Assembly: GCF_035989305.1 (NCBI RefSeq)
Contig: NZ_CP108514.1
Location: forward strand, 1,789,501-1,853,500
Origin: Streptomyces sp. NBC_01233
Lineage (GTDB): Bacteria > Actinomycetota > Actinomycetes > Streptomycetales > Streptomycetaceae
Reading direction: 5' to 3'
DNA length: 64,000 nucleotides
Below are positions 42,089-56,778 of this stretch, piece by piece. A program made the translations under genes and the position numbers. The notes under the pieces are model-generated. The model did no database searches and was not told the DNA's origin. It saw only the letters and a program-made list of their open reading frames with translations. How positions within the stretch are numbered: position 1 is the first letter of the stretch; each line of letters begins with the position of its first letter.

Positions 42089-42120
42089 GGCTGCCTTCCG
42101 GTGTCGGGTGCGGGGCGGTA

Positions 42121-42861
42121 CTAGCCCTTCGCGAGCTGCCGTAAGAAAGTCTCGGCGAGGGCCTTGGAGGAGTAGGGGTTCTGGCCGGTCGTCAGCCTGC
42201 GGTCCACGACCACGTGCGAGTCCCAGATGGCTTCGGCCTTCTCGTAGCGGGCGCCGAGCCGGGTGAGCTCGACCTCCAGGATCAGCGGGAGCCGGCCGGC
42301 CATGTTGGTGACCAGTTCCTCGCTGTGCGAGAAGGCCGTCATCCGGTAGCCCTCGAACGGCCAGCGGCCTTCGCCGTCGCGCAGCGCGAGCAGCGAGGTG
42401 TGGCCGTGGCAGACGGTCGCGAGCGGCTTGTCCTGGGCGATGACCCAGCGCAGGATCTGCGCGAGCTCGTCGGACTTGGGCAGGTCGCCGATGGCGCCGT
42501 GGCCGCCGCTGACGTACACGCCGTCGTAGTCGGCGATGTCCTTCTCGGTGAGGTCCTCCAGCGCGAGGGGAGCTCTCAGCCGGGGGGTGTCCCCGATGAC
42601 CCGGACGTACTCGGCGGCGTTGGCCGCGTCCTCGTCCGGCGAACCCTGGGGGCGGACCCACTGGAGGAACTGGGGGTCGATGCTCGTCTGGTCGACGGTG
42701 GGTGCCTGGCCACCGATCGTCGCCACGTCCACTGCGTGGCCGGCGGCCTTGAAGAGCTGATAGGGGACGACGAATTCCTCGGCCCAGAATCCCGAGGGAT
42801 GCTGTTCGCCGTCCAGCAGGTGCAGTGTGGCCTTGGCCGTCATGACGACGAGAATCTTCAT
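42121..42861 (-). CDS. DJ-1/PfpI-family (class I glutamine amidotransferase-like) protein
   Basis: 246 residues. Nucleophile elbow LATVCHGHTSLLAL (Cys about 150) with YVSGGHGAIGDLP upstream, as in the Hsp31/YhbO-like branch of the DJ-1 superfamily. These act as glyoxalase III, deglycase or chaperone-type proteins. Start ATG 42861 has AAGGAGAG; an in-frame start 13 codons upstream lacks one. Lying beside an aldehyde dehydrogenase, a role in clearing reactive aldehydes is a reasonable guess. Confidence 0.88.
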   Translation of the reverse strand: MKILVVMTAKATLHLLDGEQHPSGFWAEEFVVPYQLFKAAGHAVDVATIGGQAPTVDQTSIDPQFLQWVRPQGSPDEDAANAAEYVRVIGDTPRLRAPLALEDLTEKDIADYDGVYVSGGHGAIGDLPKSDELAQILRWVIAQDKPLATVCHGHTSLLALRDGEGRWPFEGYRMTAFSHSEELVTNMAGRLPLILEVELTRLGARYEKAEAIWDSHVVVDRRLTTGQNPYSSKALAETFLRQLAKG

Positions 42862-42930
42862 GATTCTCTCCTTGTTCTGGATTCGCTGCCGATTCAACAC
42901 GCCCCCCGCAAGGGGCGTAAGGGGGAGACG

Positions 42931-43674
42931 TCAGGCCCGCGATACTTCGTCACGTGCGTCCAACGCCGAGATGATGGTGCGGAATTCACGGACCAGGGGG
43001 TGGCCGGGATGGGCGTCTGCGAATATGCGTTCCCCGTACAGCGCCGCCATTTCCGGCGAGTACGGAAGGATTCCGGCCAGCGGTGCCCCGTAGACCTCCT
43101 CGGCGCGCCGCCGGGCGTTCTCCCGGTCGATGTCCTCGGGGGCCATGCTCAGCACCAGGATCCGCCGGCAGGTCAGGCGGCCGGCGAGGGCGATGGTCTC
43201 CTCGACCCCGGAGAGGTCGATCCGGTCCGCCCTGGCCATGATCATCAGTACGTCGGCGCTCGCCATGGCGGTCACCGACTCGTTGTTGAGTCCGGCGTGG
43301 GTGTCGAGCAGCAGCACGTCGAGCGCGTAGTGCTCGGCCAGCCGGTCGAAGCCCTCCGGCAGCAGCCCCACGTCGTAACCGCTGGTCATGATCTCGCGCA
43401 GGGCGGCCGTCCCGGTCCGGGCCGGTACGACGTACAGCCCGGGTGGGCCCGCCTGCTGGGCGGTGGCCTCGATCTCGCAGCGGCCGAGGAGGTAGTCGGC
43501 GAGGGAGGCACCGGGTCCGAGCCGGAAGAGCAGGTCCAGGGTGGGTGACTGGATGTCGGTGTCCACCACCCCCACCCGGCGCCCCCCGGCCGCGATCAGC
43601 AGCGCGAGGTTCGCCAGGACCGAGGACTTCCCGGTGCCACCGCGGTGCGAGTGCACCACGATGGTGCGGGCCAT
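42931..43674 (-). CDS. MinD/ParA-like ATPase
   Basis: 247 residues. Deviant Walker A HRGGTGKSS (residues 10-18), switch I DTDIQSPTLDLL (39-50) and DVLLLDTHAGLNNES. SIMIBI-class ATPases of this kind dimerise on ATP and position or activate partners. No membrane-targeting amphipathic C-terminal helix as in true MinD is obvious. Its ATG directly follows the stop of the SpoIIE phosphatase gene, so it belongs to the partner-switching cassette. Role in it unknown. Confidence 0.87.
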   Translation of the reverse strand: MARTIVVHSHRGGTGKSSVLANLALLIAAGGRRVGVVDTDIQSPTLDLLFRLGPGASLADYLLGRCEIEATAQQAGPPGLYVVPARTGTAALREIMTSGYDVGLLPEGFDRLAEHYALDVLLLDTHAGLNNESVTAMASADVLMIMARADRIDLSGVEETIALAGRLTCRRILVLSMAPEDIDRENARRRAEEVYGAPLAGILPYSPEMAALYGERIFADAHPGHPLVREFRTIISALDARDEVSRA

Positions 43675-44934
43675 CTAGGCCACCACCCGGTGCCCGGCGC
43701 CGTCCGCGTGCGGCCCCCGCGCCGCGCGTGGCCGGTGCAGGGCCAGCATGGTGACGTCGTCGTGCTGTTCGGCGGTGCCGGTGTGTTCGCGCACCGCCAG
43801 GTCCATCCGGTCGACCACGTCCTTGCCGCTCACCAGAGGGCCGGCGAGCAGTTCCAGCATCCGTTCGTCGCCGAGGAAGCTGCCGTTCGGGCAGCGGGCC
43901 TCGGGCACTCCGTCGGTGAAGGCGAAGAGGGTGTCGCCCGGGTTCAGCTGGGCGTAGCCGAGGGTGTAGACGCAGTCGGGCAGGACCCCGACGGCCGGGC
44001 CGGTGACGTCCAGGGTCCGGGGCGGGCTGCCGTCGGCGGGCAGCAGCAGGGGCGGGTTGTGGCCGCCGTTGATGTAGACGAGGCTGCCGGTGAGCGGGTC
44101 CAGCACCCCGAAGAACAGGGTGGCGAAGTAGCCCTGCCGCAGGTGGTTGCGGGTGAGGTAGCCGTTGGTGGCGGTGACCGCGTTGAGCAGCGGCGTGGCG
44201 CCGACGACCGGGATGCGCCGGCTGCCGCCGGCGCGTCCGGCGGCGACCAGGTGCTGCAGGCCGCTGTTCTGTGCGGTGTGCCGGAGCAGGGAGCGGATGA
44301 GCGCCATGAACAGCGCGGCGCCGACCCCTTTGTCGCAGACGTCGGCGACGACGAACGCCAGCCGGCGGCCGCGGGATATCTCGAAGACGTCGTAGAAGTC
44401 CCCGGCGACCTGCCGGGCGGGCCGGAAGCGCACGTCGATCTCCCAGCCCGCCGGTACGGGCAGTGATTCGGGCAGGAAGCCCGCCTGGATCTCCCGGCCG
44501 ATCTCCAGTTCCTTCTCGTAGCCCATGAGTTCGGCGCGGGCGTCGGCCTCCCGCAGGGTGCGGCCGAGTCCGGCGCGCTCCGAGCAGCTGTGCAGCCGGG
44601 CCCCGACGAGGGCGGGCAGGAAGGGTGGTACGAGGTAGTCGTGCCCGATCCGGACGTGTGCCTCCAGGGCGGCGAACTCCGTCACGGTCCAGACGACGAC
44701 GATGGGGGCCCCGGCCCAGCGGCGCAGCCGGCGGACGGCGGTGCGGACGGACTCCCCGTCGGACTCGGCCGGGGCCAGCAGCACGTCCGCGACGGGCAGC
44801 AGTTCCAGCGGGCCCGCGAGCAGCTCCGTCAGCGTACGGGTGACGAGTTCCGCGTCCATGATCCGCAGCGCCTGCAGGAGCTCGGGCGGCGGTGGCGGGT
44901 ACGCGTCGAGGATGATCACGGTCGTGGAGGGCAT
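43675..44934 (-). CDS. SpoIIE-type PP2C phosphatase with N-terminal receiver-like domain
   Basis: 419 residues. Residues 1-120 look like a degenerate receiver domain (VIILDAYPPPPPELLQALR..., PIVVVW). PP2C/SpoIIE domain from about 150: GREIQAGFLPESLP, metal Asp in VAGDFYDVF and VVADVCDKGVGAALFMALI, GGHNPPLLL, FTDGVPEAR and DDVTMLAL. It should dephosphorylate the STAS proteins of this operon, reversing the RsbW-type kinase. Overlaps the kinase gene by 19 bases. Confidence 0.91.
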   Translation of the reverse strand: MPSTTVIILDAYPPPPPELLQALRIMDAELVTRTLTELLAGPLELLPVADVLLAPAESDGESVRTAVRRLRRWAGAPIVVVWTVTEFAALEAHVRIGHDYLVPPFLPALVGARLHSCSERAGLGRTLREADARAELMGYEKELEIGREIQAGFLPESLPVPAGWEIDVRFRPARQVAGDFYDVFEISRGRRLAFVVADVCDKGVGAALFMALIRSLLRHTAQNSGLQHLVAAGRAGGSRRIPVVGATPLLNAVTATNGYLTRNHLRQGYFATLFFGVLDPLTGSLVYINGGHNPPLLLPADGSPPRTLDVTGPAVGVLPDCVYTLGYAQLNPGDTLFAFTDGVPEARCPNGSFLGDERMLELLAGPLVSGKDVVDRMDLAVREHTGTAEQHDDVTMLALHRPRAARGPHADGAGHRVVA

Positions 44935-45389
44935 CGGTCCGTCTCCTCAGCCTTCACAGTCAGCGTGCTGATGTTGCGGCCGTCCCGGTGCGCGTAGCTG
45001 AACTCGTCCACGCTGGTCAGCGCCAGGTGGATGCCGAGGCCACCGATCCGCCGGTCCTCCGGGGGGACCCCGGGGGCGGGCGGAAGGCGGCCTTCGACGG
45101 GGTCGAAGGCGGGTGCGGCGTCTTCGATGGTGATCTGCACCCCGCCCGGGCCGGAGCGGCCGCGGACGGTGATCCGTCCGTCGCCGCACCGGTACCCGTG
45201 CATCACGATGTTCGTGGCCAGTTCGTCCACGGCCAGCCGGATCCGGTACGTGGCGCCCTTGCCCAGGCCCGCCCGGCCGGCCAGCCGCAGGACGAACGCG
45301 GCGATGTCGCCCAGTGCCCCCACCGTCGCGGGCACCTCCAGCAGGGAGGACGACCTCGCCAGTTCGGCCATGTCAGTCACGGTGGTCAC
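44916..45389 (-). CDS. RsbW-like anti-sigma/serine kinase (GHKL ATPase)
   Basis: 157 residues. HATPase_c domain with N-box LAVDELATNIVMHGY (about 52-66), G1 EDAAPAFDP and G2 IGGLGIHLALTSVDEFSY. Such proteins bind a sigma factor or another partner and phosphorylate STAS antagonists. GTG start overlaps the STAS gene stop by four bases. No sigma factor gene is next to it, so the partner is elsewhere or not a sigma factor. Confidence 0.9.
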   Translation of the reverse strand: MTTVTDMAELARSSSLLEVPATVGALGDIAAFVLRLAGRAGLGKGATYRIRLAVDELATNIVMHGYRCGDGRITVRGRSGPGGVQITIEDAAPAFDPVEGRLPPAPGVPPEDRRIGGLGIHLALTSVDEFSYAHRDGRNISTLTVKAEETDRCPPRP

Positions 45390-45697
45390 TCATCGGAGAG
45401 CACGATGCTGCGGTCGAGTCCGGCCGTCCGGATGGTCCGGGACACGGGCTCGATGGCACCGACCACCTTGATGGTGACGTTGTTCGCGACCTTCTGCTGG
45501 GCGAAGACCAGGGAGCGCAGTCCGGCGCTGGCCATGTAGCCGACGCCGGCCATCCTGATCTCGACGGTGCTGGTGCCGTGCCCGGCGGCCTTCTCGATGG
45601 TCTGGTGGAAGTCCGGCGCGGTCTTGGCGTCCAGCTCGCCCGTCAGCTCGATGACGGTGGTGTCGCCCTCGATGCTCAGGGACACGGAAAGCGGCAT
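45386..45697 (-). CDS. STAS-domain anti-sigma factor antagonist
   Basis: 103 residues, a single STAS domain: VIELTGELDAKTAPDFHQTIEK and the phosphorylation loop VGYMASAGLRSLVFAQ (Ser about 61). ATG with AAGGAG. Direct neighbour and likely substrate of the overlapping RsbW-like kinase and the SpoIIE phosphatase. Confidence 0.92.
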   Translation of the reverse strand: MPLSVSLSIEGDTTVIELTGELDAKTAPDFHQTIEKAAGHGTSTVEIRMAGVGYMASAGLRSLVFAQQKVANNVTIKVVGAIEPVSRTIRTAGLDRSIVLSDE

Positions 45698-45713
45698 GTC
45701 AGGTCTCCTTCGG

Positions 45714-47852
45714 TCACAGCATCTCGGGATCATCGGTACGGCCCACCAGGATCACGACCGAGCGCGGGCCGATCAGGTACTTCCCGGCGTTGTCCAGTTC
45801 CTGCTCGCCGCCGGGGGTGCGGATGTCGTGCGGTGCCTCGGCCCCGGTGTCGGCGAACAGGTGCCAGCTCCGGCCTCCCGGCAGGGCGGGCAGTTCGAGG
45901 TCGTGCGACTCCCAGTGCGCGTTCATGGCCACGTACACCACGTCGTCGTCCCCGGTGCCGCACCGGGCCACGGCGATCAGCCGGCTCTCGGAGGACCAGT
46001 CGGGCTGCCAGGCCCGCTCCCCGTGCCAGCTGATGTCCGGCAGGCCCAGGTTCTCGCGGACCTGGCCGGTGGGGTGGGCGGTGGAGCGCAGCTCGCGGTG
46101 GTGCTTGCGGAAGGCGATCATCTCCCGTGTGAACCGGAGCAGTTCGGCGTTGTCGTCGACCTGGTCCCAGTCGAACCAGGAGAGTTCGTTGTCCTGGCAG
46201 TACGTGTTGTTGTTGCCCTGCTGGGTGCGCGCGACCTCGTCCCCGGACAGCAGCATCGGAATGCCCTGGCTGGTGAAGAGGATGGCGATCGCGTTCTTCA
46301 TCTGCCTGGTGCGCAGCGCGTTGATCTCGGGGTCCTCGGTGGGCCCCTCGGCGCCGCAGTTCCAGCTGTTGTTGTCGTTGGCGCCGTCGTTGTTGTTCTC
46401 GCCGTTGGCGTCGTTGCGCTTGTCGTTGTAGGAGACCAGGTCGGCGAGGGTGAAGCCGTCGTGCGCGGTCAGGAAGTTGACCGAGGCGGCGGTGCCGCGG
46501 CTGGAGTACAGGTCGGGCGAGCCGGCGATGCGGGTGGCCAGTTCTCCGGTGACCCCGGCGTCGCCCTTGAGGAAGCGGCGCACGGTGTCGCGGTACTTGC
46601 CGTTCCACTCCGCCCAGCGGCCGTACGCCGGGAAGTTGCCGACCTCGTAGAGGCCGCCGGCGTCCCAGGCCTCGGCGATGAGCTTGGTATGCCGCAGGAC
46701 CGGGTCGTAGGCGAGCAGTTCCAGCAGCGGCGGGTTGGGCAGCGGGGTGCCGTCCAGGGCCCGGCCGAGGATGGCCGCGAGGTCGAAGCGGAAGCCGTCG
46801 ATGTGGTAGTCGGCGACCCAGTGGCGCAGGCAGTCGAGCACGTAGTTGCGCACGACGGGGTGGTTGCAGTTGACGGTGTTGCCGGTGCCGCTGAAGTTGA
46901 AGTAGTACCCCTCGGGCGTGAGCATGTAGTACGTGGCGTTGTCGAGCCCCTTGAAGGAGATCGTCGGGCCCTGCTCGTTGCCCTCGGCGGTGTGGTTGAA
47001 GACGACGTCGAGGATGACCTCGATGCCGGCCGCGTGCAGGTCCTTGATCAGGGTGCGGAACTCGTCCCCCTGCATCCCGTACCGCCCGGTGGCCGCGTAG
47101 CCGGCCTTGGGCGCGAAGAAGGAGACGGTGTTGTAGCCCCAGTAGTCGAAGAGCCGCTCGCCCGTCTCCGGGTTGGAGCGCGGGTTGTCGCTCTCGTCGA
47201 ACTCGAACACCGGCAGGAGCTCGATGCAGTTGATCCCGAGTTCCTTGAGGTACGGGATCTTCTCGCGCAGCCCGGCGAAGGTGCCGGGCGCGGTGACCTG
47301 CGAGTTGGGGTGCCGGGTGAAGCCGCGCACGTGGGCCTCGTAGACGACGAGGTCCTCGGCGGGGATGCCCAGCGGTGTGTCGTCGCCCCAGTCGAAGTCC
47401 TGGAGGCAGACGCGGGAGCGGTACTGGTAGCCGCGGCTGCGGTCCGGCTCCACGCCCCACACGTCACGGCCGGCGATCAGCCGGGCGTAGGGGTCGGAGA
47501 GGACCTGGCGGGCGTCGAAGCGGTGGCCGGTGACCGGGTCGTAGGGGCCGTCCGCCCGGTACCCGTACTCGATGTTCTCGTGGTCGAGGCCGAAGACGGT
47601 CATCGCGAACACGCTGCCGGTGCGGAATTCCTCGGGGAACTCCAGTTCGGCCATCGGTTCGGGCTCTCCGCGCTTGTAGATGACCAGGGTCATGGACGTG
47701 GCCTGGTCGGAGAAGACGGAGAAGCTGACCCCGCCGGGGACCACGTTGGCCCCGAAGGGGAACGGTTTGCCCGCGCGGACGCGGTACCCGCCCACCTCGT
47801 GGGTCGGGTACGCGTCGACGCGCAGGACCTGCTCGGACTGGGTCTCGCTCAT
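45714..47852 (-). CDS. glgX: Glycogen debranching enzyme GlgX (TreX type)
   Basis: 712 residues. N-terminal CBM48 domain (about 25-140: GANVVPGGVSFSVFSDQATSMTLVIYKRG), GH13 barrel with DVVFNHTAEGNE (region I), DGFRFDLAAILGR (nucleophile Asp), LIAEAWDAGGLYEVGNFP (acid/base Glu) and NFLTAHDGFTLADL. It removes alpha-1,6 branches from glycogen or limit dextrins. It lies between two STAS genes, overlapping one by four bases, an unusual embedding that suggests glycogen use is tied to this regulatory cassette. Confidence 0.95.
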   Translation of the reverse strand: MSETQSEQVLRVDAYPTHEVGGYRVRAGKPFPFGANVVPGGVSFSVFSDQATSMTLVIYKRGEPEPMAELEFPEEFRTGSVFAMTVFGLDHENIEYGYRADGPYDPVTGHRFDARQVLSDPYARLIAGRDVWGVEPDRSRGYQYRSRVCLQDFDWGDDTPLGIPAEDLVVYEAHVRGFTRHPNSQVTAPGTFAGLREKIPYLKELGINCIELLPVFEFDESDNPRSNPETGERLFDYWGYNTVSFFAPKAGYAATGRYGMQGDEFRTLIKDLHAAGIEVILDVVFNHTAEGNEQGPTISFKGLDNATYYMLTPEGYYFNFSGTGNTVNCNHPVVRNYVLDCLRHWVADYHIDGFRFDLAAILGRALDGTPLPNPPLLELLAYDPVLRHTKLIAEAWDAGGLYEVGNFPAYGRWAEWNGKYRDTVRRFLKGDAGVTGELATRIAGSPDLYSSRGTAASVNFLTAHDGFTLADLVSYNDKRNDANGENNNDGANDNNSWNCGAEGPTEDPEINALRTRQMKNAIAILFTSQGIPMLLSGDEVARTQQGNNNTYCQDNELSWFDWDQVDDNAELLRFTREMIAFRKHHRELRSTAHPTGQVRENLGLPDISWHGERAWQPDWSSESRLIAVARCGTGDDDVVYVAMNAHWESHDLELPALPGGRSWHLFADTGAEAPHDIRTPGGEQELDNAGKYLIGPRSVVILVGRTDDPEML

Positions 47853-48223
47853 CGTGCGGCCTTGGCCTTGGCCTTGGCCTTGGCCTTGGCCTTGGCCTTG
47901 GCGGCCGCCGCGACGGCCTCGCCGGTCTCGAAGAAGTCGAGGAAGCCGGTGGCCGACATGACGAACCGGACTTCCTCGCTCACCCCGTAGAGGGTGACGG
48001 CGACGCCGGCGTGCTGCGCCTCGCGGTAGACGACGAGCAGGGTGCGCAGGCCGGCGCTGGAGACGTAGGTGACGGCCGTGAGGTCGATCTTCAGCGGCTT
48101 GCCCTCGCGGACGAGCGGCAGCAGGGCCTGGAGCAGCGAACCGGATGTCTCGCTGTTGATCTCGCCGGTGGCGACGAGCACGGTGCCCGTCTTGTTCCGG
48201 CGTTCCTTGACGTTGAGAGTCAT
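47849..48223 (-). CDS. STAS-domain protein with an Ala-Lys repeat tail
   Basis: 124 residues. STAS domain (about 10-100) with TGEINSETSGSLLQALLPL and the loop VTYVSSAGLRTLLVVY (Ser about 56). Unlike its relative at 45386, it ends in a basic tail containing seven Ala-Lys dipeptides encoded by a perfect hexanucleotide repeat. A lysine-rich tail could bind nucleic acid, polyphosphate or membrane. Stop overlaps glgX start (ATGA). Ribosome site AGAGGGG. Confidence 0.92.
   Translation of the reverse strand: MTLNVKERRNKTGTVLVATGEINSETSGSLLQALLPLVREGKPLKIDLTAVTYVSSAGLRTLLVVYREAQHAGVAVTLYGVSEEVRFVMSATGFLDFFETGEAVAAAAKAKAKAKAKAKAKAAR
47858..47899. repeat. Hexanucleotide repeat (GGCCTT)7 in a STAS gene
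   Basis: Seven perfect tandem copies of GGCCTT (GCCAAG-type on the coding strand) encode (Ala-Lys)7 at the C-terminus. Copy-number change would lengthen or shorten the tail without shifting the frame. Lys is AAG throughout. Confidence 0.95.
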
Positions 48224-48260
48224 TGCATTCCCCTCTGGTTGGGGCGCCCCCCGTTGAGCG

Positions 48261-50084
48261 CTACTTCTTGGCCACTGGACGCAGCCGCACCTTGACCTTC
48301 ACCCGGCCCTGGACGTCGGGCAGCCGCACGGTGAGGGCGTCCGCGTCGAAGTCCGTGTACGGCTTCTCGTCGATCTCGACGGACGCGATCCGCACCGAGC
48401 CGGCCGGGAGCAGGTCGGGCGAGACGCGCAGGACCCGGTCGGGCAGGCCGGTCGGGTCGGGCTGGAAGTGGAAGTCCATCTCCCGGCCGTTGACGAGCAG
48501 GTTGTTGTAGACGGCGGAGAGGTAGCAGAGCTCCGCCGAGTGGTACATGGACATCGAGTGGCTGCCCTTGAGGCGCTCGGTGCCGAGCAGGTACGGCGTA
48601 CCGCTGGCGAGCACGTTGAAGTAGACGGCGCCCTCGTCGTGGTCGAGGAAGAAGGTGTTGTAGAAGGACTGCGCCTGCCGGGCCTCGCGCAGGTTCGCGT
48701 CGCCGCCGACGGTGCCGTTCAGGATGAGGTAGGCGAGGATCGCCTGCTCCTGCTGCCACCAGGCCTTGCGGTCGTGCCAGGCGAAACGATACGTCTCCTC
48801 GTCCCCGGACTTGATCCGCTCGACGACGTCGTACCAGCCGCCGCGCTGCACGTCGCTGCCGACCGCCGGCATGATCTCGCCGATCTTCTTCGCGAGGTCC
48901 TCGTACGCCGGCTTGGCCTTCAGCGAGTTCATCCGCATCAGGTTCCAGGCGATCTTCAGGTTGTGGCCGACGACCGCGCGGTTCTGCTGCCAGCTGTGGG
49001 CGGTGTCGTGCGACCAGTCGCGGAAGAAGCGCTCCTGGACGAAGGGGCTGTTCTTGTAGTCCGGGAACTTGTCCGCGATGGTGTCGAAGGTGTACTCGAG
49101 GAAGTCGGCGTACTTCTGCTCGCCCGTCGCCAGGTAGAGGTTGATCAGGTACGCGGGCGCGTGGTCGCCGACCGAGTTCCAGTTCTTGCGCTCGGCGTTC
49201 TCGCCGAGGGACTCGTGGTCGGCGCTGAAGAGGATCGGGTCGATGTGCGAGTAGTAGCCGCCCTGCTCCGGGTCGAAGAAGAACTTGTCGAACAGCCGGA
49301 TGGTGGCGTCCGCGTCGTTCTTGATCCGGACGTCGCCGGTGACCCGGTACGTCTGGATGGGGCCGGCCAGCGCGTAGATCTGCTCGTACATCGGGATCGC
49401 GTCGTAGTCGTCGGAGAACTCCGAGGTGAAGAGCTTGCGCTCGCTGTCCCCGTCGACGCTGATGCCGTGGTACCAGAAGACCACGTCCTCCTCGCTGTCC
49501 ACGACCCGCATGTGCTTGCGCAGGTACTCGGTGCCGCGCTCGGCGACCTCCAGGTACTCGTCCTTGCCGGTCAGCAGGTAGGCCGAGGCCATGCCGTAGA
49601 CCAGGCGGGAGATCGTGTCGGTCTCCTGGACGTGGCTGGCGGTCTTGTCACCGCCGAGCCGGATCTCGGTGCGGTACTCGGCGAAGTCCACCGGCCCGTC
49701 GCCGAACTGGGCCCGCTTGTAGAAGTCGGCCAGCGACTCGATCTGCTTGATCCACCAGCTGGGCTCCTCGAAGCGGTAGTCCTCGGCGCCGCGGCCCAGG
49801 AAGACCAGGCGCTTGGCGTCGAACCGCCCGCCGTGCTCCGGGTAGTGGACTCCGTAGACGAAGAGGAACCGGCCCGGCGAGAGCATCTCGTCGATGTGCC
49901 CGGAGGCGTCGATGTGGGGCTCGTCCAGGTTGCGGACCAGCTCGGCGCTGGGGTCGCCGGCGAGCGAGACGTCGAACCCGCGCCCGTCGGAGGTCTTCAG
50001 ACGCAGCACGCGCGACCCGGAGTCGAAGCGTTCGACGTAGCCGGCGATGGTGTCGGAGAAGGAGAAGCTCACGGCATCCGCCAT
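48261..50084 (-). CDS. AGE-family (N-acylglucosamine 2-epimerase-like) alpha/alpha-barrel protein
   Basis: 607 residues. An N-terminal beta-rich domain of about 110 residues (FSFSDTIAGYVERFDSGSRVLRLKTSDGRGFDVSL) precedes an (alpha/alpha)6 barrel. The barrel has AGE-like blocks RAVVGHNLKIAWNLMRM (His of the active cleft), RKAWWQQEQAILAYL, and many Trp/Tyr typical of sugar-binding toroids. C-terminal beta extension. AGE relatives epimerise or isomerise free sugars at C2; the substrate here is unknown. ATG 50084 chosen: it follows the VOC stop by one base, while an upstream GTG overlaps that gene. Confidence 0.82.
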   Translation of the reverse strand: MADAVSFSFSDTIAGYVERFDSGSRVLRLKTSDGRGFDVSLAGDPSAELVRNLDEPHIDASGHIDEMLSPGRFLFVYGVHYPEHGGRFDAKRLVFLGRGAEDYRFEEPSWWIKQIESLADFYKRAQFGDGPVDFAEYRTEIRLGGDKTASHVQETDTISRLVYGMASAYLLTGKDEYLEVAERGTEYLRKHMRVVDSEEDVVFWYHGISVDGDSERKLFTSEFSDDYDAIPMYEQIYALAGPIQTYRVTGDVRIKNDADATIRLFDKFFFDPEQGGYYSHIDPILFSADHESLGENAERKNWNSVGDHAPAYLINLYLATGEQKYADFLEYTFDTIADKFPDYKNSPFVQERFFRDWSHDTAHSWQQNRAVVGHNLKIAWNLMRMNSLKAKPAYEDLAKKIGEIMPAVGSDVQRGGWYDVVERIKSGDEETYRFAWHDRKAWWQQEQAILAYLILNGTVGGDANLREARQAQSFYNTFFLDHDEGAVYFNVLASGTPYLLGTERLKGSHSMSMYHSAELCYLSAVYNNLLVNGREMDFHFQPDPTGLPDRVLRVSPDLLPAGSVRIASVEIDEKPYTDFDADALTVRLPDVQGRVKVKVRLRPVAKK

Positions 50085-50085
50085 G

Positions 50086-50541
50086 TCAAGCACCGTCCTT
50101 GTCGTGAGAGCCCTCGTGAGTACGGTCGTGAGTGCGGTCGTCCTCGTATCCCTGGCCGACTTCGACGATCACCCCGTCGGGGTCGCGGATCCACACGGTC
50201 CGCCAGCCGCAGATGAAGTCGTCGAAGTCCAGCGGCCCCAGGGTCACTTCGGCCGCGTCGCCAAGCTCGGCCAGGAACGCGTCCACGCTGTCGGTCTGGA
50301 AGGCCAGGTGGCGCATCCGTCCCGGAGCCTGCGGCCCGTCTTCGTGCGCCGGGCGGGCCGGTTCGGCGCCTGCCGCAAAGAGCTCCAGGTACGCGTCCCC
50401 CTTGCGCAGGAACACGATCTGGGCCTCTCCCAGGTCGACCACCCGGGCCCGGGTGAAGCCGAAGTACCGGGTGTAGAACTCCTCGGTGGTCTTCTGGTCC
50501 GCACAGTTCAGGCCCACGTGCGACCAGACCGGCCCGGCCAT
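50086..50541 (-). CDS. VOC-family (glyoxalase-like) protein
   Basis: 151 residues, paired beta-alpha-beta-beta-beta modules of the vicinal oxygen chelate fold: SHVGLNCADQKTTEEFYTRYFGFTRARVV and MRHLAFQTDSVDAFLAELGD, with possible metal ligands His8, His78 and Glu127 (VWIRDPDGVIVEVGQ). The C-terminus is rich in His/Asp/Arg. Its ATG shares one base with the preceding stop (TGATG). Confidence 0.86.
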   Translation of the reverse strand: MAGPVWSHVGLNCADQKTTEEFYTRYFGFTRARVVDLGEAQIVFLRKGDAYLELFAAGAEPARPAHEDGPQAPGRMRHLAFQTDSVDAFLAELGDAAEVTLGPLDFDDFICGWRTVWIRDPDGVIVEVGQGYEDDRTHDRTHEGSHDKDGA

Positions 50542-51152
50542 CAGGCCTGCCCCCGGCCCCGCCCGGCCGCGATCAGCTCGATGATCCGGCGGGCGAAGAG
50601 GTGGTGGTGGGCGCCAGTGCGGCCGGTGACCAGGTCCCCGTCCACCACCACGTCCTCGTCGACGTACTGGCCGCCCATGTTCCGGACGTCCCCGATGAGG
50701 TTGTTGTGGCAGACGACCTTGCGGCCGCGCACCTTGTCCGGGATCGAGGAGGCCAGCCACATGCCGTGGCAGATGATCCCCTTGAGGACCGTTGGCTCCT
50801 CGAAGGCCCGGCGCAGCAGCTCCGTCGCCGGGGCCAGCCGGTCCACGTCCTCGGTGTAGCGCAGCCGGTCGGCCACCATGCCGGAGGGCACGATGACCGC
50901 CGCGTACCGGCGCAGGTCGTCGTCGCTCAGCCCCTCCAGGGACTGGTTCGCGGTGAAGGGCGCCCGGTACTCGTGCCCGGTGAAGGTGATGGAGTCGTTG
51001 CCCCACAGCCGGGTCAGGAAGTCGACCTCGGCACCCTCCTCCGCGAACCGGTGCCGGTAGTAGAAGATCTCCGGCTCGTAGTAGTCGCTCTCGACCAGGA
51101 CCGCGATCCGGGTCCCGGACAGCGCGCCCTCGCGCAGGACGGCATCAGGCAC
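50541..51152 (-). CDS. DJ-1/PfpI-family protein
   Basis: 203 residues. Nucleophile elbow GIICHGMWLASS (Cys about 126) after VIVPSGMVADRL; family member different from the one at 42121. N-terminal strand IAVLVESDYYEPEIFYYRHRFAEEGAEVDFLT has the conserved Glu near the active site. Overlaps the GMC gene by eight bases. Possible roles are amidase, glyoxalase III or hydrolase acting on an operon intermediate. Confidence 0.87.
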   Translation of the reverse strand: MPDAVLREGALSGTRIAVLVESDYYEPEIFYYRHRFAEEGAEVDFLTRLWGNDSITFTGHEYRAPFTANQSLEGLSDDDLRRYAAVIVPSGMVADRLRYTEDVDRLAPATELLRRAFEEPTVLKGIICHGMWLASSIPDKVRGRKVVCHNNLIGDVRNMGGQYVDEDVVVDGDLVTGRTGAHHHLFARRIIELIAAGRGRGQA

Positions 51153-52749
51153 GGGAGGTCCCCCTCAGGAAGTCCGCCGCGCGCTCGGCGATCATCGCGA
51201 TGGCGGTGTGGCAGTTGCCCGACGGGACCGCGGGCATCACGCTGGCGTCGACGACGCGCAGGTTCCGTACGCCGTGCACCCGCAGCTCGGGGTCGACGAC
51301 GGAGAGGTCGTCGATGCCCATGCGGCAGGAGCCGGCCTGGTGGTGGTAGCTCTCCGACTTCTGCTTCACGAAGGTCCGCAGGTCGTCGTCGCTCACGTAG
51401 CCGGGTCCGGGCTGGAGCTCCTGCTTGTACCAGGGGGAGAAGGCGGAGGTCGCGAAGATCTCCCGGGCGGTCTTGACGCCCTGCACCATCCGCTCCAGGT
51501 CCCAGCGGTCGCCGAGGTAGTTCGGGTTGATCAGCGGGTGGGCCACCGGGTCGGCGCTCGCGAGCCTGATCCAGCCGCGCGAGACCGGCCGTACGACACC
51601 GGGCAGGATGGACACCGTGTTGGGGTGGTCCTGGCCGACGATCACGTCGAAGGGCACGTGGACGAAGGCGATCTGGAGGTCGGGCGCGGGCAGTCCGGGC
51701 TGCGAGGACAGGAACAGAGCGCTCTCCGACAGGTTCTGCGCCGGCGGCGGGAGCTCCTGGGTGACCTCGGCCATCAGTCCGGTCAGGACGTGGTTGTGGA
51801 AGTTCTCGCCGACCCCGGGCAGGGCCGCGGTGACCTCGATGCCGTGCTCGCGCAGCTGCTCGGGGTGGCCGATGCCGGAGAGCAGCAGCAGCTTCGGGGA
51901 CTCGATCGCCCCGGCGGCCACGATCACCTCCCGGCGGGCCCGTACGGTGTGCAGCCCGGGCGCCGCGACGCTGCTGTGCGCGTCCCGGACCGTCCGGCCG
52001 GCGAACTCGGCGGGGGCCCGGAGCTGGGCGTACTCGACACCCGTGCAGGTGTCCCCGTCGAAGAGCAGCCGGGTGCTCTGCGCGTTGGTGCGCAGGGTCA
52101 GGTTGGCGCGGTCCAGGGCGGGCTCCAGGTAGGCGGCGAGCACCCCTTGGCGGCGGCCGTCGGCCACGTCGATGTGGTGCCAGCCGGTGCCGAAGAGACC
52201 GCGCCGGGGCCCGTCGGTGTTGAAGTCGGCGATCTCCTCGTGGCCCAGCTCGACGGCGGCGTCGATGAAGGCGCGCGAGACCGGGTTGGCACCGTGCCGC
52301 CCGGCGTTGGTGATCCGCTGCGGCCCCCGGGTGCCGGTGGTGGCGGCGGTGACGTCCTCCTGGCCCTCCAGCAGGGCGAAGTACGGCAGCACGTCCTCGT
52401 GTGCCCAGCCGGCCGCGCCCTGGTAGGCCCAGTTGTCGAAGTCCGAGGCGTGACCGCGGATGTGCATCATGATGTAGAGGTTGCTGCTGCCGCCGGGGGC
52501 CTTGCCGCGGGGTTCGTACGTGCGGCGGCCGTCCAGGCCGGGCTGCGGAGTGCTGGTGTAGCCCCAGTCCACGGGACCGCCGAGGAGCTTGTACCAGGAG
52601 GACGGGTCGTCCACCTCGGGCGGGATCCGGGAGCCGCCCGCCTCCAGGACGAGGACGGAGACGTCCGGGTCCTCGGAGAGCCGGTTGGCCAGGACGCTGC
52701 CGGCGGTGCCGGATCCCACGACGATGTAGTCGTACTCTTCCACGCTCAC
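51145..52749 (-). CDS. GMC-family FAD oxidoreductase (choline dehydrogenase-like)
   Basis: 534 residues. FAD motif DYIVVGSGTAGSVLANRLSED (7-27), GMC signature PRGKAPGGSSNLYIMMHIRG, VIVAAGAIESPKLLLLSGIG, and C-terminal active-site region YHHQAGSCRMG plus VPSGNCHTAIAMIAERAAD. The second catalytic residue is Asn/His in that last block. It oxidises a primary or secondary alcohol, unknown here. GTG start with GAGGGAG. The following NTF2-like and ThDP genes are in the same operon. Confidence 0.93.
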   Translation of the reverse strand: MSVEEYDYIVVGSGTAGSVLANRLSEDPDVSVLVLEAGGSRIPPEVDDPSSWYKLLGGPVDWGYTSTPQPGLDGRRTYEPRGKAPGGSSNLYIMMHIRGHASDFDNWAYQGAAGWAHEDVLPYFALLEGQEDVTAATTGTRGPQRITNAGRHGANPVSRAFIDAAVELGHEEIADFNTDGPRRGLFGTGWHHIDVADGRRQGVLAAYLEPALDRANLTLRTNAQSTRLLFDGDTCTGVEYAQLRAPAEFAGRTVRDAHSSVAAPGLHTVRARREVIVAAGAIESPKLLLLSGIGHPEQLREHGIEVTAALPGVGENFHNHVLTGLMAEVTQELPPPAQNLSESALFLSSQPGLPAPDLQIAFVHVPFDVIVGQDHPNTVSILPGVVRPVSRGWIRLASADPVAHPLINPNYLGDRWDLERMVQGVKTAREIFATSAFSPWYKQELQPGPGYVSDDDLRTFVKQKSESYHHQAGSCRMGIDDLSVVDPELRVHGVRNLRVVDASVMPAVPSGNCHTAIAMIAERAADFLRGTSRA

Positions 52750-52760
52750 GGGTCTCCCTC

Positions 52761-53132
52761 TCAGCCCTGGTTCAGCACCTGGAAGGGGACCGTGTCGTGG
52801 TAGTTCGCCATGTAGGCGATCTTTCCGTCCACGATCCGGAAGAAGTTCATGACCTCGGCCTCGATGGCCTCGCCGGCAGGGCTGACCGCGGTCAGGTGCG
52901 AGACGGCCGCGGCCTTCTCACCGTCGACGAGGAAGTGCACGGGCTCGTTCCGGAAGACCCGGTACATCGTGCCCATGCCCTTCATCATCGAGCGCAGGAC
53001 TTCGAGCCCCTCGATGTGGCCGGCCAGCTGCTCGTCCATGACCTGGTCGTCGGCGAACAGGTCGCACCAGCGGTCCCAGTCCCCGGCGTTGGCGTACTCG
53101 TAGTACTTCTGAAGGATCTGTCGTGCGTCCAT
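52761..53132 (-). CDS. NTF2/SnoaL-like protein 1
   Basis: 123 residues from ATG 53132. This start is nine bases after AAGGGGG; an ATG three codons upstream (53141) abuts the ribosome site and is less likely. Fold: ARQILQKYYEYANAGDWDRWCDLFADDQVMDEQLAGHIEGLEVLRSMMKGM and strands to the end. Close to polyketide-cyclase or limonene-hydrolase-like families. First of three adjacent NTF2-like genes. Confidence 0.82.
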   Translation of the reverse strand: MDARQILQKYYEYANAGDWDRWCDLFADDQVMDEQLAGHIEGLEVLRSMMKGMGTMYRVFRNEPVHFLVDGEKAAAVSHLTAVSPAGEAIEAEVMNFFRIVDGKIAYMANYHDTVPFQVLNQG

Positions 53133-53146
53133 CGCGCTCATCCCCC

Positions 53147-53602
53147 TTATCGGTCCCTGCGGGTTCCGTCCGGCGCGAAAGGCGCCCAGAACTGGCTGAA
53201 GGCGGACGCCGAGTCCCCGAAGAGCCCGTCGCGGCCCTCGACGATCCGGCCGTCCTGCCAGCGCATGTAGTGGAAGACCGGGTAGTCCATCCGCTCGTAC
53301 GGGGACCCGCTCGTCCCGTCCGCGCCGGCCCGCAGGGCGACGTTGCGGCACACGTCCGCGGAACAGTCCTCGCCGACGAGGACCGCCTCCAGGTCCATCC
53401 GGAAGGTGCCGCCCGTGAGCTTGTGGGTCTGGCCCATCAGCTCCAGGAAGGCGTCCAGGCTCTCGTACCAGCCGGCCAGCGGGTGGTTGCCCGGCACCAG
53501 CCAGCGCAGGTCCTCGGAGTAGTACTCGAGGATGCGCGCCCGGTCGCCGGAGCCGAGGGCGGCGTAGGCCGCCCGCACCCGCTCCTGCGTCACTTCGGTC
53601 AT
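53147..53602 (-). CDS. NTF2/SnoaL-like protein 2
   Basis: 151 residues. VRAAYAALGSGDRARILEYYSEDLRWLVPGNHPLAGWYESLDAFLELMGQ is a SnoaL-type N-terminal helix-strand unit; His near GNHPLAG may line the pocket. ATG with AAGGAG. Distinct in sequence from its two neighbours, so the trio is not a recent duplication. Confidence 0.83.
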   Translation of the reverse strand: MTEVTQERVRAAYAALGSGDRARILEYYSEDLRWLVPGNHPLAGWYESLDAFLELMGQTHKLTGGTFRMDLEAVLVGEDCSADVCRNVALRAGADGTSGSPYERMDYPVFHYMRWQDGRIVEGRDGLFGDSASAFSQFWAPFAPDGTRRDR

Positions 53603-53625
53603 GGTCGCTTCTCCTTCGCCGGCGG

Positions 53626-54060
53626 TCAGAGGGAGCCGGAACCGGGCATCGGCGCCAGGTCGTTGACGGTGTACTGCTTGATCAGCGGTCCGTTCGGACC
53701 GGCGACCACGGTCCACGTCTGATCGGCGTCGAAGCCGAGCCACTCGCTGCGGGCGGCCGGCGGGTTCCAGATCTTGGCCTGCCAGTTGACGAGGACCCGG
53801 ACGACCGCCCGGTCGCCCTCGATGACGGGCTCCACCTTCGTGACCGTGTGCACCTCGTCGAAGAAGCGGTGGGTGACGGCCTCGTACCAGCGTCCGAAGC
53901 CCTCGTGTCCGAGGAAGGTGTCCTCGGGGACCTTGAACTCCAGGTCCTCGGTGATCAGGGCGAGCACGTCGGCCGCCCCCACGTGCTGGTCCAGCGCCAC
54001 GTACCACTTCTCCGCGAAACTGCGGATCGCGTCCTCGGTCAGCTGCCGCTCGGCGGGCAT
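53626..54060 (-). CDS. NTF2/SnoaL-like protein 3
   Basis: 144 residues. AIRSFAEKWYVALDQHVGAADVLALITEDLEFKVPEDTFLGHEGFGRWYEAVTHRFFDEVHTV, then VRVLVNWQAKIWNPPAARS and a long last strand. ATG with AGGAGG. It lies 43 bases downstream of the ThDP enzyme gene. Confidence 0.83.
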   Translation of the reverse strand: MPAERQLTEDAIRSFAEKWYVALDQHVGAADVLALITEDLEFKVPEDTFLGHEGFGRWYEAVTHRFFDEVHTVTKVEPVIEGDRAVVRVLVNWQAKIWNPPAARSEWLGFDADQTWTVVAGPNGPLIKQYTVNDLAPMPGSGSL

Positions 54061-54103
54061 GCGGTCTCCTCCTGTCCGTACGGGGACTCGTGTCGGATGG
54101 CTG

Positions 54104-55741
54104 TCAGATCTGGATGTCGACGAGGAAGGGGCCGGGGTGGGACAGCATCCGGCCCACTGCGGAGACCGCCTCGTCCGGCTTCTCCACACGCATCCCGCCG
54201 GCGCCGAGCGACCGGGCCAGCCCGGCGAAGTCGATCTCGGGGTGCGAGAGGTCGAAGGAGCCCGGGAAGCCGTGCGCCGGGATGTCCCGCTCCCGCCAGT
54301 ACTCGGCGATGTTGTCGTCCAGCAGCCGGTACTTGCGGTTGTTGCACACCACGAACTTGGCGTCGATGCCGTGCCGGGCGGCGGTCCACAGCGCCTGGTA
54401 CGTGTACATCGACCCGCCGTCGCCCGCGAAGCCGACGACGAGGCGGTCCGGCCGGGCCAGCTTGGCGCCGACCGCGCCCGGGAAGCCCACGCCGAGCGAA
54501 CCGCCCCGGGTGAGGTGGTAGTCTCCGGGCCGCTCCGCCGGCAGGTACCGCGTGACCAGCGGCGAGGTGGTCAGCGCCTCGTCGAAGACGATCAGGTCCC
54601 CGCCGGTGCGCTCGGCCAGCGTCTTCAGGAAGACGGCCATCGGCGAGCCGTCGTCCGTGGCCGCCTGCGCCTCGCGGGCCCGCTCCCGGGTCCGTGCGTC
54701 GAGCCGGGCGGACGCCGCGGCCCGCTGCTGCGGGCTCAGCAGCCGGTCCAGTACGCCGGCCAGCGCGCGCAGCGCCTGCCGGGGGTCGGCGGCCAGGCCC
54801 AGGTCCACGGGGTGGTTCTTGGCGATCTCGTAGGCGTTGAGGTCGATGTGGACGACCTTCGCGCCCGCCCGGAAGGGGCTCTCCAGCTCGGGGAACACCT
54901 CCGGGAAGACATAGGTGCCGACGATCAGCACCCCGTCGGCGTCCCCGACCAGCTCCTTGCTGTGCGGGCCGAACATGTGGCCCGTCTGGCCGCGCCGCAG
55001 CGGGTGCGAGGCCGCGATGTTCACCTCGGACGAGTCGACCTCGTACACGTCGGCGCCCAGCAGCTCGGCGACGGCGGCGAGTTCGTTCTGCGCCCCGGAG
55101 AGCGAGACCCCGTCCCCGACGAGGACCACCGGCCGCTGCGCGGAGGCGAGCAGCTCGGCCGCCCGCCCCACCGAGGCCGGCGAGGGCGCCACGTCCGTGA
55201 GCGGCACCGTGGCCGGCAGGACGGGCTCGGAGTTGAGCTCGTCCAGCACGTCCATCGGCAGCGCCACGAAGACGGGCCCCCGGGGCGGGGTGAGCGCGAT
55301 CTTCACGGCCCGCCGGATGGTGCGGAGCACGGAGTGCCGGTCGGTGACCCGGGTCGCGTACTTCGTCACCGGCTTGGCCATCGCCACCAGGTCGGACGCC
55401 ATCTGGGCGTCCATGGCGTCGTAGCGCACCCCGGCGTCACCGGCGACCACGACGAGCGGGGTGTGGCCGCGCAGCGACTGGTAGAGCATGCCGATGCCGT
55501 TGCCGAGCCCCACCCCGGAGTGCAGCTGGAGCAGGGCCGCGCCGCCGGTCGCCCGGGCGTACCCGTCGGCGATGCCGGCGGCGACGGTCTCCTGGAGGGC
55601 GAGGATGTAGGTGAAGTCCTCCGCCGCGTCCACCGCGTCGAGGAATCCCTGTTCCACCGTCCCCGGATTTCCGAACATCACCTTCAGGCCGTCGGCCTTG
55701 AACTGCTCGATCAGCCTTTCCCGTCCGGGAGTGGCTTCCAT
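54104..55741 (-). CDS. Benzoylformate decarboxylase-like ThDP enzyme
   Basis: 545 residues, three-domain ThDP fold. VMFGNPGTVEQGFLDAV near the N-terminus, catalytic Glu in ALQETVAAGIADGYARATG (about 51), His in LLQLHSGVGLGNGIGML (about 74; the equivalent of benzoylformate decarboxylase His70), and the Mg-ThDP motif GDGGSMYTYQALWTA..VVCNN (about 435-470). It decarboxylates a 2-keto acid or joins aldehydes (carboligation). Together with a GMC oxidoreductase and AGE-type protein it suggests carbon-chain or alpha-hydroxyketone chemistry. ATG with GAGGGGG. Confidence 0.9.
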   Translation of the reverse strand: MEATPGRERLIEQFKADGLKVMFGNPGTVEQGFLDAVDAAEDFTYILALQETVAAGIADGYARATGGAALLQLHSGVGLGNGIGMLYQSLRGHTPLVVVAGDAGVRYDAMDAQMASDLVAMAKPVTKYATRVTDRHSVLRTIRRAVKIALTPPRGPVFVALPMDVLDELNSEPVLPATVPLTDVAPSPASVGRAAELLASAQRPVVLVGDGVSLSGAQNELAAVAELLGADVYEVDSSEVNIAASHPLRRGQTGHMFGPHSKELVGDADGVLIVGTYVFPEVFPELESPFRAGAKVVHIDLNAYEIAKNHPVDLGLAADPRQALRALAGVLDRLLSPQQRAAASARLDARTRERAREAQAATDDGSPMAVFLKTLAERTGGDLIVFDEALTTSPLVTRYLPAERPGDYHLTRGGSLGVGFPGAVGAKLARPDRLVVGFAGDGGSMYTYQALWTAARHGIDAKFVVCNNRKYRLLDDNIAEYWRERDIPAHGFPGSFDLSHPEIDFAGLARSLGAGGMRVEKPDEAVSAVGRMLSHPGPFLVDIQI

Positions 55742-55783
55742 GAATTCCCCCTCAAATCTCCGATTTCTCTGCGGCCTCCGGGA

Positions 55784-56608
55784 TTACCAGCCGTATCGGG
55801 TGAGACCGTCCTCCAGGACTTCCACGATCTTCTGCCCCGTGAGATACGAGTCGGGGGTGGAACGTCCGGTGACGAAGGGGAAGTCGACGATCACCGAGAC
55901 CGGCTTGCCGAAGTTCCCGTGATACGCGCCGCCCGGGCCCGTCGCATCGCGCAGGATGTACTCCAGCGGATACGGCGGCGGCCCCATGTTGAAATCGGTA
56001 CCGAGGAATCCGGTGCCGTCCTTGTAGTCGTACTCCTTGCAGTGGCCGGTCACGTGCTTGCCCCAGATGATGCTCTTGCGGTCGCTCCAGTCCCGGGCGA
56101 AGGCCAGGCAGGCGACCCCGTAGCACTCCGCGGCCACGACCTTGCCGGCCTTCTTGAAGGCCAGGATCAGGGCGTGCACGCGCTCGTTGTTGGCGAGGTC
56201 CGCGATCGGGCCGCTGCCTCCGACGATGAGGATCGCGTCGTAGTCCGCGATGTCGGCGTCGAGCTTGTCCAGATCCCGGTGGTACTGCTCCAGCTTGCGC
56301 AGGTAGCCCTCGTCGCTCGTGTACGGACGCTCGGGGACCCACGCCTCGATGTCGAGCGGCGAGTCCAGCCGGCTCGACTGCTCGAACTCCCGCCCCAGCC
56401 GGGCGTTCTCCCCGCTGGTGACCGAGCGTCCCAGTGGAGGATCGATGTAGTTCGCGTCGAGGCTCGGCGGAAGAGCGTGTGCACGCTTTCCGGTCGGCGT
56501 GGCGAATATGACCTCGTAGCCCCGCTCGTCGAACTTCGATACCGGTCCGATCAGTTCCTCGGCCCAGTAACCGTGTTCGGAGACAATGACCAGAATCTTT
56601 CTGCTCAC
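55784..56608 (-). CDS. DJ-1/PfpI-like class I glutamine amidotransferase fold protein
   Basis: 274 residues from GTG 56608, picked because GGAGG lies upstream; an in-frame ATG further up has no ribosome site. KILVIVSEHGYWAEELIGPVSKFDERGYEVIFATPTG, YDAILIVGGSGPIADLANNERV, and nucleophile AAECYGVACLAF (Cys about 157). Longer than its operon relatives, with extra helices about 85-125. First gene of the long minus-strand run; the promoter must lie in 56609-56889. Confidence 0.85.
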   Translation of the reverse strand: MSRKILVIVSEHGYWAEELIGPVSKFDERGYEVIFATPTGKRAHALPPSLDANYIDPPLGRSVTSGENARLGREFEQSSRLDSPLDIEAWVPERPYTSDEGYLRKLEQYHRDLDKLDADIADYDAILIVGGSGPIADLANNERVHALILAFKKAGKVVAAECYGVACLAFARDWSDRKSIIWGKHVTGHCKEYDYKDGTGFLGTDFNMGPPPYPLEYILRDATGPGGAYHGNFGKPVSVIVDFPFVTGRSTPDSYLTGQKIVEVLEDGLTRYGW

Positions 56609-56727
56609 GTATTCCTCCAGGCGCCGCCTGTTGTCGTTGGCGTCCCCCACACTGGCCGCGCCCGGAGCCTGCGTCAAAGCGCTGGCATGCGACTTCGTGA
56701 GGTAGCCGCCCAGGTCATGGCAGCACC

Positions 56728-56778
56728 TCAGGAAGTCACCGGCGGACGTCAGGAAGTAGCTTCAGGACTACCTGACTT
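56728..56778 (-). promoter_or_regulatory. Repeated TCAGGAAGT motif in the divergent promoter region
   Basis: TCAGGAAGT at 56728-56736 and 56749-56757 (21 bases apart, two helical turns), a variant TCAGGACTA at 56762, and the inverted form CCTGACTT at 56771-56778. They stand between the first gene of the long metabolic run (start 56608) and the UBP zinc finger gene (56890). Nothing else is recognised in this 281-base gap. Likely operators of an unknown regulator. Confidence 0.5.

Follow-up and report, generated by a model that had tools for sequence, protein, structure and literature searches.

An icfG-type operon in Streptomyces sp. NBC_01233: comparative evidence suggesting that its partner switch may act directly on an enzyme

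A run of 15 genes on the minus strand (56608-42931) of Streptomyces sp. NBC_01233 contains, as judged from its sequence, an actinobacterial icfG-type operon. The run lies in a stretch of 64,000 nucleotides (contig NZ_CP108514.1, positions 1,789,501 to 1,853,500; the whole stretch is referred to here as the window), which is part of a host genome of 10.3 Mb. One half of the run encodes an epimerase of the N-acylglucosamine 2-epimerase (AGE) type, a STAS protein, the glycogen debranching enzyme GlgX, a second STAS protein, an RsbW-like serine kinase and a SpoIIE-type phosphatase, and it is of the same cluster type as icfG in Synechocystis. The system is therefore of a known kind, and comparison with its relatives points to an enzyme as a possible direct target of its phosphorylation switch.

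Kinship to the icfG cluster and conservation of the switch

In Synechocystis PCC 6803, where it is reported to have a role in carbon control, the icfG operon (slr1852-slr1862) has the order AGE-STAS-GlgX-STAS, with SpoIIE and HATPase genes next, and papers citing earlier work date the cluster in print to the 1990s (PMC12329169, PMC8670252). The original prediction placed GlgX between two STAS genes, with which the coordinates agree, but regarded the combination of genes as not a known one; for the AGE-STAS-GlgX-STAS-kinase-phosphatase half, that view has to be given up. Read directly, the Synechocystis salina locus (L065) has the gene order AGE-STAS-GlgX-STAS found in the window, a DJ-1 gene before AGE, as in the window, and a SpoIIE phosphatase and a HATPase kinase directly after the second STAS gene, again as in the window. 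The two loci differ in that the window has the kinase before the phosphatase, an order swapped relative to L065, and in that its phosphatase is without the dCache/HAMP region present in L065. The window also adds a MinD-like ATPase and, upstream, genes for a thiamine diphosphate (ThDP) enzyme and for NTF2, GMC and VOC proteins.

The AGE-type epimerase/isomerase of the window (48261..50084, 607 residues; Slr1855-like) is 62-63% identical to the S. salina protein. It matches PF07221, of the N-acylglucosamine 2-epimerase superfamily, has remote matches in the PDB to AGE-family epimerases, and falls far below the cut-off for the cellobiose epimerase equivalog. GlgX (45714..47852, 712 residues; Slr1857-like) scores 693 bits with TIGR02100, above the cut-off of 640.9 bits. 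Because it shares 62% identity with the GlgX of L065, compared with 42-43% for the two other GlgX proteins of the host genome, the cluster GlgX forms a separate, icfG-type lineage. Asp357, Glu394 and Asp465, which we take to be the GH13 catalytic residues, are present in 126/126, 125/126 and 126/126 aligned rows, respectively. The next-best matches to the phosphatase and the kinase in the host genome are weak (63 and 27.6 bits).

The spread of the cluster was followed in two sets of genomes, which appear to overlap in part, so that their counts are not added together. When named genomes were scanned with an AGE alignment, 510 loci were confirmed, of which the best 80 were used, a choice that favours near relatives; the presence of genes was scored by tblastn, with some misses due to contig ends. 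Among these 80 loci (59 actinobacterial, 18 cyanobacterial, two from Chloroflexi and one from a verrucomicrobial metagenome-assembled genome, MAG), STAS1 follows AGE within 1.5 kb in 79 and GlgX within 2.5 kb in 79, while L041 is interrupted by a contig end; RsbW and SpoIIE are found on 72/80. The second set comprised 394 Streptomycetaceae genomes, searched with the AGE alignment at E 1e-50 and not picked by neighbourhood. An AGE of the window's kind was found in 54/394, and one locus was taken from each of the 53 genomes besides the window's own. These sample loci fall into 22 of subfamily I (72-96% AGE identity to the window) and 31 of subfamily II (55-59%). STAS1, GlgX, STAS2, RsbW, SpoIIE and MinD accompany AGE in all 22 subfamily-I sample loci, and the gene order is thus beyond chance; simple adjacency by chance was rejected on the synteny seen across both sets. 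In a phylum-wide sample the cluster was present in 1/296 genomes, namely the window's own, and its distribution is patchy. Viral contigs yielded no relative, and among the papers listed from the openly licensed PMC literature we saw none that deals with an icfG-type cluster in actinobacteria or with an AGE-STAS fusion.

The proteins of the switch keep their catalytic and acceptor residues. STAS1 (47849..48223), in the position of Slr1856, and STAS2 (45386..45697), in the position of Slr1859, both match PF01740 and TIGR00377, STAS1 being of the anti-sigma-antagonist type. Ser56 of STAS1 aligns with the acceptor Ser of RsbV, and Ser56 and Ser57 are the probable acceptors of STAS1 and STAS2, respectively. 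The acceptor position holds Ser in 94/94 aligned subfamily-I rows of STAS1 (the window plus 73 of 80 named and 20 of 22 sample loci) and in 97/97 rows of STAS2 (the window, 74 of 80 and 22 of 22); short, missing or stop-containing rows were left out of both alignments. The RsbW-like kinase (44916..45389; Slr1861-like; PF13581, HATPase_c_2), aligned with RsbW 6m36, has the N-box Glu and Asn in 92/92 rows, and the SpoIIE-type phosphatase (43675..44934; PF07228) has the Asp residues of its GDFYD, DVCDKG, TDG and DD motifs in 89/89. The window thus has its kinase, acceptor Ser and phosphatase residues in common with the RsbV/RsbW/RsbU and SpoIIAA/SpoIIAB/SpoIIE modules, but it differs from them in having a metabolic gene between its two STAS genes and in that no sigma-factor gene was found nearby.

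The phosphatase of the window has an IcfG-like catalytic domain with a different N-terminus. This N-terminus varies by lineage: it is dCache/HAMP in L065, has no Pfam domain in the window, and is different again in L054-L056. As the cyanobacterial loci L054 and L055 also differ, the dCache/HAMP region was not taken as a defining feature of icfG, and it seems that a conserved core carries differing sensors in different lineages. A separate variable region is the tail of STAS1 (47849-47910), an alanine/lysine repeat whose length and make-up vary among near relatives.

Loci without the switch and the fusion of STAS to AGE

The kinase and the phosphatase are absent from subfamily II: neither tblastn nor profile searches detected RsbW or SpoIIE in any of the 31 loci. 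GlgX is nevertheless adjacent to AGE in 28/31, and the pairing of AGE with GlgX thus appears to outlast the switch. Using a profile built from the 97 subfamily-I STAS2 rows, we found a STAS2-like stretch in 29/31 subfamily-II loci, and in 26/31 this stretch forms the C-terminal 110 residues of AGE itself (a count that includes L131, detected only in a smaller search). The fused AGE proteins are 715-730 residues long; among 102 subfamily-I AGE proteins, of about 607 residues, none has a fused STAS. When the profile of 12 of the 26 fused domains was compared with STAS2, the match had a probability of 98.1% (E 1e-13), against 0.2% for two control families. A weak MinD-profile match in L122 (E 2e-5) and STAS1-profile matches in L115 and L132 were not counted as cluster genes. 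A database search with one fused AGE gave 4618 matches; the best 120 of these are 709-754 residues long, 20 of the 120 carry a precomputed STAS domain, and several of the 120 go by the name epimerase/anti-anti-sigma factor. An AGE form with a fused, Ser-replaced STAS2-like part and without kinase or phosphatase looks new.

The acceptor Ser is missing from these loci, as are the kinase and phosphatase. In the 26 fused domains the acceptor position is Arg in 24 and Gln in two, and in four free STAS2 proteins of switch-less loci, judged by eye (three of them are also in the alignment), it is Ala in three and Thr in one. In an automatic alignment of the best 120 of the 4618 homologues, Ser stands at this position in seven and Thr in three.

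An unrooted AGE tree was made from 39 chosen rows, 28 with the switch and 11 of the 31 without. The free-STAS switch-less form groups with switch-bearing actinobacteria (support 100/98), and the fused form groups with Cyanobacteria, Chloroflexi and the verrucomicrobial row (support 100/99). These well-supported branches force two independent changes, and a single clade of the 11 switch-less rows is rejected with p-AU 0.0025, in a test run after the tree had been seen on groups that had been set by identity and neighbours before it. As the tree is unrooted, loss and gain of the switch are not separable in it; we read the two changes as two losses.

Two further observations concern AGE itself. 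One relative (P0112, 861 residues) carries an N-terminally fused DJ-1b-like domain, so that STAS is not the only fusion partner of AGE. In another genome (G456), two equally scoring AGE copies (C1:109170 and C1:8672304) are placed as mirror images relative to the two contig ends, an arrangement that terminal inverted repeats would produce.

The MinD-like ATPase, the metabolic genes and the limits of the run

The last gene of the run encodes a MinD/ParA-like ATPase (42931..43674; AAA_31/ParA, with an alignment to MinD and FleN). This protein was found in 23/394 Streptomycetaceae genomes, with one match in each (E 1e-25; six candidates scored per genome), and comparison of the two lists showed these to be the same 23 genomes that carry a subfamily-I AGE, the window's genome included (Fisher p ~1e-37, with kinship among the genomes ignored). 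The tie is looser among the named loci, where 56 of the best 80 of 510 carry the ATPase. From its sequence match and its P-loop, the window protein resembles the ParA/MinD ATPases FleN, MinD and McdA, but Arg11 replaces the signature Lys of the deviant Walker A motif by which ParA/MinD proteins are recognized, and the protein falls outside that definition. The same replacement is seen in 54 of the 56 named loci and in all 22 sample loci having the ATPase. McdA type 1, which positions carboxysomes, is also reported to be without the signature Lys, with Ser instead in S. elongatus (PMC6328274, PMC8262871). The second P-loop Lys, by comparison, is Arg in three rows (L025 and two family-sample loci) and Gln in the cyanobacterial L055. 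Taken together, the comparisons indicate that the MinD-like ATPase is a dedicated part of the subfamily-I cluster, and the tie between an Arg-type MinD ATPase and a subfamily-I AGE is apparently new. Because the ATPase lies directly after GlgX in the Nostoc-type loci L061, L062, L074 and L076, where the kinase and phosphatase are kilobases away or were not seen, its tie may be to the enzymes. Candidatus Chloroploca (L073:16600-18213) has two MinD-like matches in tandem after SpoIIE.

The 15 genes between 56608 and 42931 are separated by no more than 43 bases. In transcript order, the 14 gaps are 42, 43, 23, 14, 11, -8, -1, 1, 37, -4, 16, -4, -19 and 0, so that six junctions overlap or touch. 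The original prediction of about 15 tightly packed minus-strand genes was therefore accurate, and Pfam and NCBIfam bear out the families that it named: two DJ-1, ThDP, three SnoaL/NTF2, GMC, VOC, AGE, two STAS, GlgX, HATPase_c_2, SpoIIE and ParA/MinD. For DJ-1a, all three NTF2 genes, VOC, AGE and STAS2, the start was placed inside the longest open frame with the help of GGAG-like words upstream, GC by codon position and the limits of the domains.

The run begins with DJ-1a, a DJ-1/PfpI (ThiJ-like) protein of 274 residues (55784..56608; PF17124, PF01965) with a GTG start at 56608. It is followed by the ThDP enzyme (54104..55741, 545 residues; Pfam TPP N/M/C), by three NTF2/SnoaL-like proteins, all PF12680 with chosen starts (53626..54060, 144 residues; 53147..53602, 151 residues; 52761..53132, 123 residues, for which 53141 is also a possible start), and by a GMC oxidoreductase (51145..52749, 534 residues; PF05199, PF00732) whose nearest solved relatives are alcohol and choline oxidases. 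The identification of this GMC protein as the mycofactocin protein MftG was rejected, its score being below the cut-off. DJ-1b, a second DJ-1/PfpI protein (50541..51152, 203 residues; PF01965), and a VOC protein of the glyoxalase fold (50086..50541, 151 residues; PF00903, ATG at 50541) complete the part before AGE. The ThDP enzyme is like benzoylformate decarboxylase (BFD), which provides its best solved relatives, but it scores below the NCBIfam cut-off for that enzyme (307 against 493 bits). Glu51 and His74 are present in 81/81 aligned rows, and no His of the ThDP enzyme aligns with the VFRYH position of BFD, the His of which we take to be the second active-site His of BFD.

A search for conserved synteny, as suggested in the original prediction, found the metabolic half and the switch half together in many genomes: the ThDP gene is on 54/80 of the named loci and on 20/22 of the subfamily-I sample loci. 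The part of the original refuting condition under which no other genome would keep both halves is thus contradicted by these loci. It is on 0/18 cyanobacterial loci, as is NTF2, and in the Chloroflexi locus L073 the ThDP unit is present but divergent from AGE. The original prediction also proposed a link to glycogen supply, and this gains from the observation that GlgE and GlgB follow MinD in related Streptomyces. GlgE lies downstream of the cluster in 16/42 named Streptomycetaceae loci and in 8/22 sample loci, and in most Streptomycetaceae loci with GlgE downstream of MinD it is accompanied by GlgB; in L031 the GlgE open frame overlaps that of MinD and GlgB comes next. In the window's genome, by contrast, the sole GlgE match is about 4.6 Mb away. 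The switch-less loci L105, L115 and L132 have GlgE and an amylase, which we read as TreS-like from its Pfam domains, beside a run of DJ-1a-ThDP-DJ-1b-AGE-GlgX. In Synechocystis, mRNA and protein levels are reported to be uncorrelated for four glycogen-degrading enzymes, including GlgX(slr1857) (PMC3859321).

The run may extend past 42931. After a gap of 69 bases there is a third DJ-1 gene (HchA-like; 42121..42861, minus strand; PF01965, with NF003168 below cut-off), then, after 32 bases, an aldehyde dehydrogenase gene (40604..42088, minus strand; PF00171) and, after a further 23 bases, an F420-type oxidoreductase gene that ends the minus-strand stretch 42861-39966. All three are present in near relatives with loci reaching that far, and a few loci farther removed, L047 among them, have single members; the third DJ-1 is found mainly in close relatives. 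In a simple scan of 39900-57000, nothing promoter-like turned up, and the five terminator-like sites that did are all on the plus strand; about 4.8 of these would be expected by chance, and the scan says little. The region upstream of DJ-1a (56609-56860) shows partial conservation across 24 near relatives and has repeated ACTTCCTGA-like words, and it may be common to a divergent plus-strand gene for a response-regulator/pyridine-nucleotide reductase fusion. Elsewhere in the window, a flavin mononucleotide (FMN) riboswitch (Rfam RF00050) lies at 3330-3460 on the minus strand.

The target of the switch

The gene content, the conserved order, the icfG kinship, the intact catalytic and acceptor residues and the co-occurrence of the ATPase have all been shown here by comparison of sequences. 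As an explanation of the whole, we favour an actinobacterial icfG-type operon with an enzyme-level partner switch on AGE and GlgX, and would give it an even chance. A metabolic module of AGE and GlgX, with DJ-1b and, in the window, the ThDP, GMC, NTF2 and VOC proteins, would be co-produced with its own regulator, comprising two STAS proteins, one RsbW-like kinase, one SpoIIE phosphatase and the MinD-like ATPase. The kinase would phosphorylate Ser56 and Ser57 of the STAS proteins, and a phosphatase, SpoIIE for at least one of the two, would reverse this. In Synechocystis, Slr1861 is reported to phosphorylate Slr1856 and Slr1859, and IcfG to dephosphorylate Slr1856 (PMC12329169). In one of its phospho-states, in the simplest case the unphosphorylated one, STAS2 would dock on AGE or on an AGE-GlgX assembly and set its activity, so that alpha-glucan breakdown and the sugar steps that follow would be gated at the level of the enzymes; a sigma-factor branch through the kinase may run alongside. 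Where kinase and phosphatase are absent, STAS2 would be an unphosphorylatable and usually covalently fused part of AGE, and the partnership would be permanent. We propose rather more tentatively, at something short of an even chance, that STAS2 (and perhaps STAS1) is seated on AGE-GlgX by the kinase and phosphatase, that glycogen use is thereby switched without new transcription, that switch-less lineages have hard-wired the STAS protein onto AGE, and that the Arg-type MinD may position or load the assembly as McdA does for carboxysomes.

Several points weigh against this interpretation. The match of the fused-domain profile to STAS1 is weak (21%), the profile matched no solved STAS structure, and Pfam showed no STAS domain at E 0.01 in the two fused AGE proteins scanned, so that the fusion claim is built on the STAS2 profile of the cluster, the profile comparison and the precomputed Pfam STAS domains in 20/120 homologues. 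These 120 are themselves the best of 4618 matches to a single query and were compared as protein sequences. The Thr at the acceptor position in L115 could still be phosphorylated. A fusion shows association and not the direction or sign of control, and the STAS part of the fusion could serve the structure or permanently trap an anti-sigma factor encoded far away. Furthermore, IcfG is reported not to dephosphorylate Slr1859, to which STAS2 corresponds, and an anti-SigC role is reported for Slr1861, with Ssr1600 as the antagonist (both PMC12329169). Finally, the host genome has 49 Sigma70_r2 matches, any of which is a possible target.

The reported anti-SigC role and the 49 Sigma70_r2 matches bear directly on the main rival, an ordinary sigma-factor partner switch, in which RsbW would hold a sigma factor encoded elsewhere, STAS1 and STAS2 would be anti-anti-sigma factors, and the metabolic genes would be co-transcribed targets or mere neighbours. 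All the classical parts of such a switch are present with conserved residues, as this rival requires. However, no sigma-factor gene was detected in 133 cluster loci with a hidden Markov model (HMM) made from 20 sigma regions of the host genome, with which distant types could be missed, and the candidate of a resident sigma factor in the cluster was dropped on this result. The one sigma-factor gene in the window (6182-7087) lies about 36 kb from the switch and, as it was also in the training set of the model, its match is not an independent control. A 2025 paper moreover calls the sigma-factor targets of Slr1856 and Slr1859 unknown (PMC12329169), and an ordinary sigma switch does not predict the AGE-STAS2 fusion or the retention of STAS2 without the kinase. 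We regard this rival as a serious one that is nonetheless rather doubtful. The original prediction, in which a pathway for a sugar/ketol metabolite is gated not only through a sigma factor, stands in part: an enzyme-level gate is backed by the fusion of STAS to AGE and by the lost phospho-acceptor Ser, but the sugar/ketol metabolite stays hypothetical, and the targets may yet include a sigma factor, as Slr1861 is reported to control SigC. A mixed role is also possible, since a Streptomyces enzyme is reported to antagonize an anti-sigma factor as well (PMC13232838).

It is improbable, in our view, that the fused STAS merely stabilizes the structure of AGE, with STAS2 a passive subunit and phosphorylation serving something else. 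The drift of the acceptor position to many residues in fused proteins is what a passive domain might show, but the position is invariably Ser in the subfamily-I STAS2 rows, and neither of the two switch-less groups on the tree retains that Ser. Less probable still is the view that a catabolic ThDP/GMC operon merely lies next to an icfG operon to which it is unrelated. The icfG half is able to exist by itself, as in the cyanobacterial loci without ThDP and NTF2, and the ThDP unit is divergent in L073, but the ThDP gene recurs in most of the named loci and of the subfamily-I sample loci, part of the module lies beside AGE in the Chloroflexi locus L056 and in the switch-less L105 and L115, and gaps of 1 and 37 bases separate VOC from AGE and AGE from STAS1.

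For the enzyme-level switch, then, the neighbouring AGE and GlgX are a specific and testable target, indicated by the fusion and by the fact that kinase, phosphatase and acceptor Ser are missing together. If this is true, a module usually read as sigma-factor control would govern glycogen enzymes in Actinobacteria, Cyanobacteria, Chloroflexi and one verrucomicrobial MAG, and an unusual type of MinD-like ATPase would gain a setting in which it can be studied.

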